In this document: positions 8,217 to 37,159 of the stretch, piece by piece
Layout of the letters: each line of letters opens with the position of its first letter
How positions within the stretch are numbered: position 1 is the first letter of the stretch
Virus record (IMG/VR): IMGVR_UViG_3300011113_000379
Span: 1-37,159 of that record
DNA length: 37,159 nt
Direction: 5' to 3' (one strand)
From: a virus
Made by a program: the position numbers and the translations under genes
Notes under the pieces: generated by a model
The model's input: only the letters and a program-made list of their open reading frames with translations
What the model was told of the DNA's origin: nothing
The model's database searches: none

Positions 8217-8609
8217 ATGACAACCACTCTCACCTCTATTTCACTGAACGCCCTGCCCGCCATCGGCGCAGACCTTGACAGCGGCACCTTTGCCGGCCTG
8301 ACCACCCGCAAAGACGGCACCCACTGCGCGGTGGTCTTGCTGCCCACCAAACCCACCAAGATACTGGCATGGAAACCCGCCATGACCTGGGCAAAGAAGC
8401 AAGACGGCGAGCTGCCCACCCGCCCCGTTGCCGCCCTGCTTTTCGCCAACGTCAAAGACAAGCTGGAGCCCACCTGGCACTGGACCAGCGACGAAGACGA
8501 CGCTTCCTACGCCTGGACCTGCTACTTCTACTACGGCAGCCAGTTCAACAGCCACAAGAGCTACGAGGGCTCGGTTGTTGCCGTCCGCCTGATTCCACTC
8601 ACCGCTTAA
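8217..8609 (+). CDS. DUF1566/C-type-lectin-like protein, copy 1 (putative variable protein)
   Basis: This encodes 130 residues, with GGAA upstream and no signal peptide. The second half has the DUF1566-like arrangement: a G-T-H-C-A-V-V strand, a helix followed by GELPTRPVAALLFAN, then EPTWHWTSDED, an aromatic-rich segment and SYEGSVVAVRLI as the last strand. This C-type-lectin-type fold is used by variable proteins of diversity-generating retroelements. Its final third is nearly identical to the paralogue downstream, except for seven hypervariable codons (see the repeat features). It sits in the early accessory operon, not among the tail genes, so an intracellular ligand-binding role is more likely than receptor binding. 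Confidence 0.75.
   Translation: MTTTLTSISLNALPAIGADLDSGTFAGLTTRKDGTHCAVVLLPTKPTKILAWKPAMTWAKKQDGELPTRPVAALLFANVKDKLEPTWHWTSDEDDASYAWTCYFYYGSQFNSHKSYEGSVVAVRLIPLTA
8499..8588 (+). repeat. Variable-region-like repeat, copy 1
   Basis: Aligned with 9000-9089, 23 of 30 codons are identical in all three bases. The other seven, at 8508, 8517, 8523, 8529, 8544, 8547 and 8550, read TAC, ACC, TAC, TAC, TTC, AAC, AGC here and differ at 12 first or second positions and never at the third. All are NNC, the products expected from AAC template codons. The last 36 bases (8553-8588) are invariant and could serve as the initiation-of-mutagenic-homology end. Upstream of 8499 the two genes diverge at silent sites too. 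Confidence 0.7.
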
Positions 8610-8639
8610 TTCTTCAATCCTTTTCTACCGGAGCCAACC

Positions 8640-9110
8640 ATGCAAGCCATCACCCTTGAAGCCATTGACGCCAAACAGGTCGAACTAAACCTGCTCATTG
8701 CAAAATTTAAAGAACAAGCAACCCAGACCACCGTACACACGTTTGCACAGGTAGACATAACCCTGCGCCCTGGTGACCAATACGCTGGCCCAGTGCTGGA
8801 CGCATCTGGCAAGGTTCTGCACCACCTGGTGATGATGGACGAACGCCCCGCTAACAAACTGAACTGGCAAGCCGCAAAAGACTGGGCCGCAGCCATCGGT
8901 GCAAACCTGCCCACGCGCCAAGAACTGGCATTGATCTACGCCAACTGCAAGCCGCACCTACAGCCTACGTGGCATTGGTCCTGCGAAGAGCACGAAGAAG
9001 ACGCTTCCTTCGCCTGGTACTGCAACTTCAGCTACGGCAGCCAGGACTTCTACCACAAGAGCTACGAGGGCTCGGTTGTTGCCGTCCGCCGCATTCACGT
9101 CAGCGCTTAG
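8640..9110 (+). CDS. DUF1566/C-type-lectin-like protein, copy 2 (putative variable protein)
   Basis: This encodes 156 residues, a paralogue of the preceding gene with a longer N-terminal part: a helix EAIDAKQVELNLLIAKFKEQ, then a beta region. The shared domain covers about residues 70-156 and includes the LPTRQELALIYAN helix, QPTWHWSCEEHEEDASFAW, and SYEGSVVAVRRI as the last strand. The genes are only 30 bases apart, and both are followed by TTCAATCCTTTT, so they arose by tandem duplication. Exposed residues in the variable segment are mainly Y, F, S, N, D, typical of a binding surface. Confidence 0.75.
   Translation: MQAITLEAIDAKQVELNLLIAKFKEQATQTTVHTFAQVDITLRPGDQYAGPVLDASGKVLHHLVMMDERPANKLNWQAAKDWAAAIGANLPTRQELALIYANCKPHLQPTWHWSCEEHEEDASFAWYCNFSYGSQDFYHKSYEGSVVAVRRIHVSA
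9000..9089 (+). repeat. Variable-region-like repeat, copy 2
   Basis: Counterpart of 8499-8588. Variable codons at 9009, 9018, 9024, 9030, 9045, 9048 and 9051 read TTC, TAC, AAC, AGC, GAC, TTC, TAC. The invariant 3' part is 9054-9089. No third copy, template-like copy or reverse transcriptase gene was seen anywhere in the window. Confidence 0.7.
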
Positions 9111-9142
9111 TCCTTCAATCCTTTTGACTTGAGCCACCCCAC

Positions 9143-9610
9143 ATGGCATACAACACATTGTCACTCGCCGAAAAGATCAGCACCAAAACCGCCAAAGCTG
9201 GTGATTGCTTGATTTGGCAAGGCCAAAAAGATAAACGCGGGTATGGCCGCCTGCGTTTGAATGGCCGCATGCAACGTGCCCACCGCATTGCCTTTGAGCT
9301 TCGCCATGGGCCAATCGGCAGCGGCATGGTGATCTTGCATTCCTGTGACAACCCGAGCTGCGTCAACACCGACCACCTCTCTACGGGAACCCAGCTTGCC
9401 AACGTGCGCGACATGCTCGACAAAGGCCGTGCAAACAAGGCAACCGGCGCAAGGAATGCCAAGACCAAGCTGACACCCGATCAGGTTGCGGCAGCACGCG
9501 CCAAACACATACCAGGTAAGTATGGGCACGGCTCCCACGCGCTGGCAAAGGAGTTTGGAATCTCCAAACCCGCCATGCGTGCCATTTTGCTGGGAAAGGC
9601 GCACAAGTGA
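9143..9610 (+). CDS. HNH homing-type endonuclease
   Basis: This encodes 155 residues. The HNH_3-type core spans about residues 44-80: RAHRIAFELRHG, then the zinc/active-site string with H66, C68, D69, N70, C73, N75 and H78 (LHSCDNPSCVNTDHLS). The C-terminal 50 residues contain an HTH-like segment (SHALAKEFGISKPAMRAILLG) for target recognition. Free-standing genes of this type move between phage genomes by homing and often sit, as here, between unrelated accessory genes. An SD-like GAG lies before the start. Confidence 0.85.
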   Translation: MAYNTLSLAEKISTKTAKAGDCLIWQGQKDKRGYGRLRLNGRMQRAHRIAFELRHGPIGSGMVILHSCDNPSCVNTDHLSTGTQLANVRDMLDKGRANKATGARNAKTKLTPDQVAAARAKHIPGKYGHGSHALAKEFGISKPAMRAILLGKAHK

Positions 9611-9678: not shown

Positions 9679-9708
9679 TTGACGCCAGCCAATTGCTTCG
9701 GCTACACT
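9679..9708 (+). promoter_or_regulatory. Sigma-70 promoter of the immunity-RNA locus
   Basis: TTGACG (9679-9684) is followed after 18 bases by TACACT (9703-9708). The predicted start is near 9715, at the foot of the first leader hairpin. A promoter standing here, just after the HNH gene and 255 bases before the next start codon, shows that the gap makes its own transcript. Confidence 0.6.
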
Positions 9709-9711
9709 CCG

Positions 9712-9767
9712 CCCGTCAGCGCAAAAAAAGCGCTGATCGGGTTTGGAAGCCCGTTGAAGCTCTGCGA
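9712..9767 (+). promoter_or_regulatory. Leader hairpin and upstream antisense target (seqA-like)
   Basis: CCCGTCAGCGC (9712-9722) pairs with 9730-9741 across a seven-A loop, one base bulged. Then come two target elements: GGGTTTGGAAG (9739-9749) and GAAGCTCTGCGA (9756-9767). These are complementary, each with one bulged base, to 9883-9892 and 9865-9877 in the multibranch RNA downstream. Pairing would therefore be local or in trans, as between P4 seqA and the CI RNA. Confidence 0.6.
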
Positions 9768-9770
9768 TGA

Positions 9771-9806
9771 AAGCCGCAGCCACCGCACAGGAATTGCGGC
9801 TTTTTT
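9771..9806 (+). terminator. Terminator between seqA-like target and immunity RNA
   Basis: AAGCCGCA (9771-9778) pairs with TGCGGCTT (9795-9802) and runs into TTTTTT (9801-9806). The loop is long (16 bases). In P4, pairing of the CI RNA with seqA promotes termination in the leader; a terminator in this place fits that scheme. Confidence 0.65.
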
Positions 9807-9825
9807 GTTCGTGCCTCCATTTTTT

Positions 9826-9904
9826 GGCGGCTCGGACGGGAGGCCAGCAATGGCCTGCCGGTTCTCGCAAGAGCTTCCCGGTCTTCCAACCCGTTCGAGC
9901 CGCC
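9826..9904 (+). ncRNA. P4 CI / P1 C4-like antisense immunity RNA
   Basis: The outer stem pairs GGCGGCTCGGACGGG (9826-9840) with 9890-9904 over 15 bases with a single G-U. Inside are two hairpins with GCAA tetraloops: AGGCCA-GCAA-TGGCCT (9841-9856), and CCGG...CTC-GCAA-GAG...CCGG (9858-9881). Unpaired or weakly paired CAAGAGCTTC (9868-9877) and CTTCCAACCC (9883-9892) are complementary to targets both upstream (9739-9767) and downstream (9913-9953). A multibranch RNA complementary to seqA- and seqC-like sites on its two sides is what defines the P4 CI and P1/P7 C4 family of immunity RNAs. Membership is inferred from structure, not from an alignment. Confidence 0.7.
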
Positions 9905-9910
9905 GCCATC

Positions 9911-9963: not shown

Positions 9964-10422
9964 ATGGCTACTTCTTTCACGCCCGAACTGGGCATTCGCA
10001 TCCGTTTTTCAGAATACAAAGCCGACTGGTGGGGCACCCGCGCCCAGCTTGAAGCCGAAGGCTTTATTCCCGATGGCACTCTATGGCCAGAGGGTAAAAG
10101 GTGTACCCGCGTTGACACAGCCACCGCGTGGTTTTGCATTTACCGCATCGGCGGCGATGCCACAGAGCCCAGCAAAAACACGCTGTACCGCGTGCACCAC
10201 TACTCCCAGAAGAACGATTGGCGACAGCGCCATTTCAATAAAAAGCTGCAGGAGGCGTTGGATATTGCAGCCATCGGGGGTGCTGCTTGGACGGAGGCAA
10301 AACAAAAACACATCGCTACCAGCCGCGATAGCGCTTTTCAGGAATTCAAAAACAAACTATTGGGACTGAAAAAGCGCGGGCGCAAGCCAGTCGCACACAT
10401 TGAGCCTAAGGAACAGGCATGA
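9964..10422 (+). CDS. Unknown early protein under antisense-RNA control
   Basis: This encodes 152 residues from ATG 9964, set by GGAGG at ideal spacing. The frame stays open upstream to 9607, but that part is the structured RNA and is not believed to be coding. The protein is basic (LLGLKKRGRKP near the end) with a beta-rich first half (GIRIRFSEYKADWWGTRAQLE, YRVHHYSQKNDWRQRHF) and a helical second half. I do not recognise the family. By analogy with P1 ant/icd or P4 kil/eta genes it should be a function that harms lysogeny or the host if expressed, which would explain the RNA brake. It overlaps the next gene by ATGA. Confidence 0.7.
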   Translation: MATSFTPELGIRIRFSEYKADWWGTRAQLEAEGFIPDGTLWPEGKRCTRVDTATAWFCIYRIGGDATEPSKNTLYRVHHYSQKNDWRQRHFNKKLQEALDIAAIGGAAWTEAKQKHIATSRDSAFQEFKNKLLGLKKRGRKPVAHIEPKEQA

Positions 10423-11081
10423 ACCAAATCGGCAACATCAAGCACGGACAGCACGGGACGCTGACCTATCGCCGCTGGAAGTCAATGCGCCAGCGCTCAG
10501 CAAAGGTCGACGGCTACTACGCCGCCGTCATATGCTGCGCGCGTTGGGCTGAATTCAAAGCATTCTTGGCTGACATGGGCGAATGCCCAATAGGCCACAC
10601 CTTGGATCGCATTGACAACCAGCGTGGCTACGAACCTGGGAATTGCCGCTGGGCTACTGTCGCTAAACAGAACGCCAATCGCACTTCTGTCGTGTTGCTT
10701 AACCATGCCGGTGTATGCAAGTCCGTAGCCGACTGGGCGAATGATCTTGGTATCAGCGCAAACACGATTCGCCAACGCCTCTACCTGGGTTGGGATGCGA
10801 CACAGGCACTAATGACGCCGGTCAAAAGCAATTCCACCAAGATTTACCGTAAGAAAGCAAAAACCACCATGCCAGACCCAATCATCAGCCGCGAGCGCCT
10901 GGAGCGCGAAGCCCGCGCCGCCGCCAAGACCTACGACAACATCAACGACGCCTGCCCTTACCCGTTTGGCACCGACGCCGCGCGCATCTTTGCGGATGAA
11001 TTTAAACGCGCCCGCGCTGTCATCAACTTGGCCAATTACAGCAACACCAACGTGCCACCAGCAGCAAAGGCCACCCCATGA
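10419..11081 (+). CDS. HNH-type endonuclease-like protein with appended small phage domain
   Basis: This encodes 220 residues. The N-terminal 100 residues resemble phage HNH/AP2-type homing endonucleases: TYRRWKSMRQRS, then CPIGHTLDRIDNQRGYEPGNCRWAT (the D-R-I-D-N...G-Y-E-P-G-N-C-R-W signature, about 60-85), then an HTH (ADWANDLGISANTIRQRL, about 105-122). From residue 151 (MPDPIISRERLEREAR) the style changes to an acidic helical domain found alone in other phages. An internal ATG at 10869 could start a separate 70-residue protein, but its ribosome binding site is weak. It may be a fusion formed by homing insertion upstream of a small gene. Confidence 0.7.
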   Translation: MNQIGNIKHGQHGTLTYRRWKSMRQRSAKVDGYYAAVICCARWAEFKAFLADMGECPIGHTLDRIDNQRGYEPGNCRWATVAKQNANRTSVVLLNHAGVCKSVADWANDLGISANTIRQRLYLGWDATQALMTPVKSNSTKIYRKKAKTTMPDPIISRERLEREARAAAKTYDNINDACPYPFGTDAARIFADEFKRARAVINLANYSNTNVPPAAKATP

Positions 11082-15254: not shown

Positions 15255-16184
15255 ATGGCCTATATCCGGAAATACAAGGACAAATGGCGGGCCGAAATTG
15301 AACGCAACGGCATCCGCTCCAGCAAGGTCTGTGACACCAAGCGGGAAGCCCAGGCTTGGGCCCTGGAGCAGGAGGCCAAGGCCAAGCGCGCCCGCAGTGG
15401 CGGCAATAAGACATTTGGCGACGCCGTTGACAAATATAAGCAGGACGTATCCAGCAAGAAGGACGGCGAGGTCTGGGAGGTCCGGCGACTGGACGCCATG
15501 CGGGAATACTTCGGCACCGATGCGGGATTGCTGGAGATCGACACCCCGCAGATCGCCCAATGGCGCGATGACCGGCTCAAGGTAGTCAGTGCCAGCACAG
15601 TGGTGCGCGAGGCAAACCTGCTGCGGAACCTGTTCAATATCGCCCGCAATGAGTGGCGTTGGATGGATCAGGAGCCATTCCGGGGGGTGAAGCTGCCAAA
15701 GGAGAATGCCCCGCGGCACCAGGTATGGACCTGGCAATTGATCAAGCGGGTGCTGCGCGCCGAGCGCGTGGGCAAGACCAAAGAAATGCAGGCCGCTTTC
15801 CACATTGCGCTACGCACCGGCATGCGCCTAGCTGAAGTACTGGCCGCCCCGGAAAACTTCGACACCCAGCGCCGGGTGGTCACCCTCAAAACCAAGACCG
15901 AGGCGCGGGCCCAGATCCCCATCGGGCGGATTGCTGCCAAGCTGTTGGTCCGTCCGGCGTTCGAAGTAGGTGCCAATGAAGGCTCCACGCTGTTCAGTAA
16001 GCTGTGCAAAGAGCTGTTGATCGATGGTCTGACTTTTCATGACACCCGGGGAACCGCCCTCACCCACCTATCCAAGAAGGTCGACGTGCTTACCCTGGCA
16101 AAGATCAGTCGGCACAAGGACCTGAGTTTGCTGTCCAACGTCTACTACCGCGAGACACCCGAGAAGATCGCTGGCAGGATATAG
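15255..16184 (+). CDS. int: Tyrosine integrase
   Basis: This encodes 309 residues with the standard layout: an N-terminal arm-binding strand region (MAYIRKYKDKWRAEIE...), a SAM-like core-binding domain (about 53-140) and the catalytic domain. The active-site set is complete: R191 in RTGMRLAEV, K near 212-214, H262 and R265 in FHDTRGTALTH, H287 in SRHKDL, and the nucleophile Y297 or Y298 in NVYYRETPE. It inserts the circular genome into the host chromosome at attB. The start has no strong SD, and a terminator precedes it. It converges on the late operon, with a shared hairpin beyond its stop. Confidence 0.93.
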   Translation: MAYIRKYKDKWRAEIERNGIRSSKVCDTKREAQAWALEQEAKAKRARSGGNKTFGDAVDKYKQDVSSKKDGEVWEVRRLDAMREYFGTDAGLLEIDTPQIAQWRDDRLKVVSASTVVREANLLRNLFNIARNEWRWMDQEPFRGVKLPKENAPRHQVWTWQLIKRVLRAERVGKTKEMQAAFHIALRTGMRLAEVLAAPENFDTQRRVVTLKTKTEARAQIPIGRIAAKLLVRPAFEVGANEGSTLFSKLCKELLIDGLTFHDTRGTALTHLSKKVDVLTLAKISRHKDLSLLSNVYYRETPEKIAGRI

Positions 16185-37147: not shown

Positions 37148-37159
37148 GTCCGCATTACC
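37148..37159. repeat. Right copy of 12-bp terminal repeat, candidate cos end
   Basis: Identical to positions 1-12. In TerS orientation it reads GGTAATGCGGAC, comparable in length to the lambda cohesive end. See the left copy. Confidence 0.55.

Follow-up and report, generated by a model that had tools for sequence, protein, structure and literature searches.

The window, i.e. the whole stretch of DNA analysed here, comprises the 37,159 nucleotides of the IMG/VR virus record IMGVR_UViG_3300011113_000379. The genome is that of a temperate, siphovirus-like phage and encodes an integrase, primase/helicase, repressor, terminase, portal, capsid and tape-measure protein. Two tandem genes end in closely similar segments, designated variable regions (VRs) 1 and 2. 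These genes, and two features bearing on the nature of the genome, are as follows.

8217..8609, plus strand: target gene 1 (P0001, 130 aa), Lcl_C/DUF1566-like and ending in VR1 (Lcl_C in Pfam at E 0.0068, under the cut-off)
8499-8588, plus strand: VR1, the 3′ part of target gene 1
8640..9110, plus strand: target gene 2 (P0002, 156 aa), Lcl_C/DUF1566-like and ending in VR2 (Lcl_C in Pfam at E 6.4e-7, bit score under the curated cut-off)
9000-9089, plus strand: VR2, the 3′ part of target gene 2
15255..16184, plus strand: integrase (phrog_1, E 2.9e-40), marking a temperate phage
37148..37159, no strand assigned: GTCCGCATTACC, a cos-like end, identical to window bases 1-12 and adjoining the terminase small-subunit gene

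As read from the sequence, the window appears to be an essentially complete genome with cos-like ends, and a reverse transcriptase (RT) on a missing piece is therefore unlikely.

VR1 and VR2 were aligned over 90 bases (30 codons). Twenty-three codons are identical, synonymous positions included, and the other seven, all NNC, read TAC/TTC, ACC/TAC, TAC/AAC, TAC/AGC, TTC/GAC, AAC/TTC and AGC/TAC. The 12 differences occupy six first, six second and no third codon positions, and an identical 36-base run closes both VRs (8553-8588 and 9054-9089). A first-pass annotation made from the letters alone had reported these counts and this invariant 3′ part, and both were reproduced on recounting. The codons flanking the VRs are far more diverged than the VRs themselves. 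The VR pattern occurs twice in the window and was absent from shuffled sequences. No third VR copy or template repeat (TR) was found in the window, where any further match carries 32 or more mismatches, and no RVT_1 reverse transcriptase was detected in the whole record, in agreement with the earlier statement that both RT and TR are lacking.

The first-pass annotation had also assigned the two proteins to a DUF1566-like C-type-lectin fold. Similarity to Lcl_C, the former DUF1566, was recovered, and a profile built from P0002 and its relatives aligns with the C-terminal domain of Lcl, the collagen-like protein of Legionella (8q4e, E 9e-4). The Lcl_C match of P0001 is weak; that protein shares 50-73% identity with VR1-type genes of 11 viral records. 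In the AlphaFold model the VR has low confidence, and the best Foldseek matches are C-type lectins, although weak ones (best E 0.013, TM-scores mostly 0.2-0.4). A C-type lectin fold is thus supported by these models and profiles, but not proven. Inspection by eye revealed no obvious signal peptide in the small targets, and their genes map to the early region, away from the tail genes; the targets may consequently not be classical receptor-binding proteins.

Intact cassettes in related phages

Searches with both target proteins and with a degenerate VR/TR pattern yielded approximately 40 records of phages or prophages; where a host is named, it mostly belongs to Burkholderiales. RVT_1 was present in 10/13 and 22/28 records. 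The usual order of the cassette, a diversity-generating retroelement (DGR), is VR1, VR2, avd (bAvd, PF22296), TR and RT, with the machinery directly after VR2. In the intact loci tested, the Rfam RT-15 RNA (RF03018) spans the stretch just 5′ of the TR. It covers the avd 3′ end and the spacer directly before the TR in L001 (10851-11042), L005, L006, L013 and L044, and its position suggests that RT-15 is the 5′ part of the DGR RNA in these cassettes.

When 30 VRs were compared with their own templates, 295 of 744 template adenines were found to be changed, as against 3 of 1866 other bases; i.e. VRs agree with their own TR at 1863/1866 non-A sites. The DGR adenine mutagenesis that had been proposed from the window alone is thus corroborated in its relatives. 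At the VR 3′ end in these phages, the TR and VR flanks part right after GTCCGC.

All 12 differences between VR1 and VR2 fall on adenine sites of a template of the relatives' type (24 A sites among 87 bases), an outcome with a probability of 1.5e-8 under random placement, and the expectation that changes would be confined to template adenines is borne out. The suggestion that every variable codon derives from AAC holds as regards the adenine rule, but not for the first variable codon, which is TAC in the templates of intact relatives. Unaltered adenines in the shared codons (TAC-GGC-AGC-CAG and CAC-AAG) had been counted against an unrestricted process. The 30 VR/TR pairs of the intact systems show no change at the A of CAG or at the second A of AAG, and one change at the first A of AAG; as such adenines are normally spared, that objection falls away. 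The codons equivalent to TAC (8532) and AGC (8538) are AAC in intact-system templates and are often changed, so that in the window VR1 and VR2 probably underwent the same alteration at each of the two.

Given that 12 of 12 differences lie on template adenines, and that relatives carrying a TR and an RT display A-only change, comparison at the sequence level establishes the window VRs as DGR-written. It might be argued instead that no DGR was involved, duplication or conversion having kept the 3′ ends identical while positive selection altered seven ligand-contact codons. Variable codons do coincide slightly more often within the VR pair of one phage than after shuffling (35/2000 shuffles were as high), and some exchange is possible. 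Nevertheless, the absence of any third-position or non-A difference, together with A-only change in close relatives that have a template and an RT, makes this explanation exceedingly improbable. The codon sharing may reflect exchange between VRs or the use of one cDNA twice. In L001, L045, L059 and L106, the paired VRs have several neighbouring altered codons in common close to the 3′ end; TAC-GAC-TTC, for example, is present in both L001 VRs.

Several other features of the relatives were recorded. L002 (8772-10154) has three tandem VR genes, the first with one extra VR codon, as has VR2 of L007; these extra codons suggest occasional slippage in homing. In L010 (11745-13184) the RT frame is split into two ORFs, possibly a decaying DGR or a sequencing error. 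The synonymous C of the variable TGG-NNC-TGC codon was considered as a mark unique to RT-less phages and was ruled out, since the template of the intact G019 also has AAC there; a C at this position means only that the lost template had AAC.

Sequence in place of avd, TR and RT

Neither avd (tblastn) nor an RT-15 leader (Rfam) was found in the window. Homology to the intact locus L001 (blastn) extends from 8283 to 9148 and includes VR1, VR2, the spacer and ATGGCA. The latter constitutes the first six bases of avd, and no further avd codons are left in the window. The features that follow VR2 are listed below.

9111..9148, plus strand: conserved VR2-avd spacer and ATGGCA, with the apparent 5′ replacement junction at the avd start codon (L001 blastn alignment ending at 9148; spacer comparison)
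9143..9610, plus strand: HNH1 endonuclease gene, its start coinciding with that of avd in relatives (Pfam HNH_3 E 1.8e-11; PHROG endonuclease)
9702..9910, plus strand: C4 antisense RNA region (C4 9820-9910, a1/b1 target 9702-9757, isrK-like element 9715-9806)
9964..10422, plus strand: ORF between C4 and HNH2, without PHROG or Pfam match
10419..10820, plus strand: HNH2 endonuclease, phrog_3377 type, its ORF reading on to 11081
10836..10857, plus strand: probable RT 3′-end scar, encoding the C-terminal RT motif TKIYRKK at 10836-10856, 20/22 bases (91%) identical to L001 (blastn E 0.028)
10869..11081, plus strand: small gene (MPDP...), joined by read-through to HNH2 and the RT scar

The C4 RNA scores 58.7 bits with Rfam RF01695 (cut-off 45). 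The a1/b1 target upstream of it, at 42.2 bits with RF03163, is just under the cut-off of 46.7, and RF01394 is also below its cut-off. Homologues of the MPDP... gene are separate genes in L005, L007, L044 and L073. The RT scar is the best window match of an RT-3′-end profile (nhmmer E 0.078); at only seven codons it is not significant alone, and its weight derives from its position, which is where two other RT-less phages, G002 and G027, keep longer RT tails. The end of homology at the avd start and the match to the RT 3′ end indicate that avd-TR-RT was probably replaced, with the avd start and the RT end as the two limits. This replacement by HNH and C4 sequences had not been noticed in the first-pass annotation. 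With RT, TR and Avd all looked for and absent, the window is to be regarded as an orphan pair of DGR targets and not as a complete DGR.

A single viral record could also be a chimeric assembly, in which DGR targets were joined to an unrelated HNH/C4 region, and VR repeats can break assemblies (e.g. L043/L045). The joins in the window, however, are at the avd start and the RT end, outside the repeats, the same type of join was found independently in four other records, and the matching 12-base ends suggest a whole genome. An assembly artefact is thus very unlikely.

Those four records (G002, G027, G454 and G458) are RT-less phages with an HNH gene at the avd-TR-RT place and remnants of avd and/or RT. 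G027 retains avd codons 1-56, followed by a C4 RNA, an HNH2-family gene and an RT tail; the set of C4, a1/b1 target and isrK-like element is also present there (L068 1565-1761), before the HNH gene. G002 carries a C-terminal piece of HNH2 together with an RT tail that is 90% identical over 68 residues. In G454, which has three VR genes and no RT, avd codons 1-31 are fused to HNH2; it was the top match of the HNH2-relative search and, having been found via its HNH gene, should be left out of a strict association count. In G458, where no RVT_1 was detected anywhere in the record, avd persists beside a NUMOD4-HNH_3 gene and an RT tail. The DGR at L294 (2158-3168, minus strand) has its avd intact, a NUMOD4-HNH_3 gene where the TR and the RT body would be, and a C-terminal RT remnant.

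HNH genes of two types thus occupy the former avd-TR-RT place in five phages, the window included, and relatives of four HNH queries were found in none of 34 intact-cassette segments (142.6 kb). A further phage, G006, has avd codons 1-46 without an HNH gene. The RT-less L007 (8643-11860), in which avd is cut after codon 46, has joined sequence that seems to be present also upstream of VR1 as a direct repeat; this junction seems to be another kind of deletion scar. Records ending near or at the VR genes (G016, G018 and G028), or with a single VR and no RT (G013 and G029), were not counted as losses.

In trees of the target genes, from which the VRs were excluded, the VR2-type gene of the window groups with RT-bearing phages (support 97/94). 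The RT-less phages are scattered among RT-bearing ones (five changes), and several independent losses of the RT are therefore likely; the alignments were short, and the rough bootstraps had not settled.

Origin of the orphan targets

No third-position differences were observed within the VRs of the window, G002, G027 or G454. VRs this fresh imply recent loss of the machinery, service in trans, or recombination with RT-bearing siblings. A template acting in trans would be expected to agree with the VRs at non-A sites. Each of the 18 distinct TRs compared departs from the window VRs at some non-A site, the closest, that of Curvibacter G039, having two non-A mismatches. The exact 30-base VR 3′ end was absent from all viral contigs searched, and the 33-base VR end, with one mismatch allowed, from 401 family genomes. 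A degenerate pattern in which TAC and AGC were held fixed had no match in viral or genome contigs; as these codons proved to be variable sites, the pattern was widened, and the wider genome scan revealed no fitting TR. Nor did any sister phage turn up that combines an intact cassette with an exact template match, and the records of the nearest phages by terminase (81-85%) contain no VR genes. L043, from a Hydrogenophaga metagenome-assembled genome, was considered as an orphan VR served in trans and was dropped because it sits at a contig end.

These results bear on the possibility that a host DGR or a co-resident prophage still supplies a TR and RT that rewrite the VRs in trans, the phage being a non-autonomous user. 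The window VRs are identical at all non-A sites despite the missing RT, and all of the RT-less VR sets look fresh. The VRs of L008 and L046 lie kilobases from their RT cassette, and use of distant TRs has been reported for Thiohalocapsa loci in which the RT is replaced by MITE-like repeats (PMC10907252). Against this stand the failure of all 18 TRs to fit, when VRs match their own TRs at 1863/1866 non-A sites, the absence of the VR 3′ end from the sequences searched, and the replacement scars in cis. Continued service in trans is considered unlikely. Of the two outcomes allowed earlier, namely that mutagenesis is supplied in trans or has ceased, cessation is favoured by the scars at the avd start and RT end, and supply in trans is the less supported.

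A mixed population is somewhat less likely still. RT-bearing siblings would diversify their VRs in cis, and the RT-less allele would share them by recombination. Intact and disrupted DGR variants do coexist in Thiohalocapsa, as seen in long reads (PMC10907252), and RT-less phages are scattered tips among RT-bearing ones, but no near-identical RT-bearing sibling was found, and the closest phages by terminase lack VR genes. Both this arrangement and service in trans are retained at low probability because each has been shown in that bacterial case (PMC10907252).

The reading considered probable is that the two genes are orphan targets of a former cis DGR, the machinery of which was recently replaced. 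The phage lineage would once have carried a cassette in the order VR1-VR2-avd-TR-RT. Its RT would have copied the TR with errors at adenines, and the cDNAs would have overwritten the ends of both lectin-like genes, as VR/TR comparison shows for the relatives. Later, the segment from the avd start codon to the last RT codons would have been replaced by the HNH/C4 block, most likely through recombination close to, or at, a site of HNH cutting or insertion; this route is preferred because the arrangement recurs in other phages. That VR1 and VR2 have so far gained no non-adenine difference suggests a recent replacement. The two variants held by the phage would now be frozen, unless a fitting TR and RT come in trans.

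A broader proposal is put forward more tentatively, as possible but doubtful: HNH genes may recurrently invade phage DGRs and displace their avd-TR-RT core, by cutting the RT-bearing allele followed by gene conversion, and so turn autonomous cassettes into frozen or helper-dependent targets. HNH homing as the cause of DGR loss is a hypothesis. If it is correct, a selfish nuclease repeatedly strips phages of the capacity to diversify. The recurrence of HNH genes at the avd-TR-RT place makes it a testable question whether homing endonucleases drive the loss of hypermutation.

DGRs are usually detected via their RT, and target genes without one therefore escape surveys. Such orphan targets can be recognised by the pairing of their VRs, and the loss of phage DGRs leaves readable scars.

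Comparison with known systems

What is new here is that HNH genes recurrently replace the DGR core; no account of this was found in the literature searched. A related case is Thiohalocapsa PB-PSB1, in which incomplete DGR loci have the RT or TR replaced by mobile-element sequence, in an IS/MITE-mediated manner (PMC10907252). As in the window, targets with DGR-type VRs remain at loci from which the machinery has been replaced; those loci, however, lie on a bacterial chromosome, and fitting TRs exist in trans for some of them (PMC10907252). The window and its RT-less relatives are instead temperate phages in which HNH endonucleases, accompanied or not by C4 RNA, are present, and the search for a fitting TR was negative.

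Burkholderia phage Magia (MT701587) has an annotated DGR cassette consisting of a lectin-fold target, a second target-like gene, an Avd-like protein and an RT. Its gene order is the same and its small lectin-like targets are homologous (42.6% identity to P0002), but it has kept avd and RT where the window has HNH and C4 genes. The intact Burkholderiales cassettes (e.g. L001/G001, Limnohabitans lacus L044 and Curvibacter L047) have targets mostly 55-73% identical and the same VR frame and post-VR2 spacer; they possess bAvd, RT-15 RNA, TR and RT, whereas the window is without all four. G002, G027, G454 and G458 differ from the window in their break points, and G458 also in its HNH type (NUMOD4-HNH_3) and in having kept avd, but they share with it orphan VR genes, an HNH gene at the avd-TR-RT place and, as its ATGGCA and RT scar may be, remnants of avd and/or RT.
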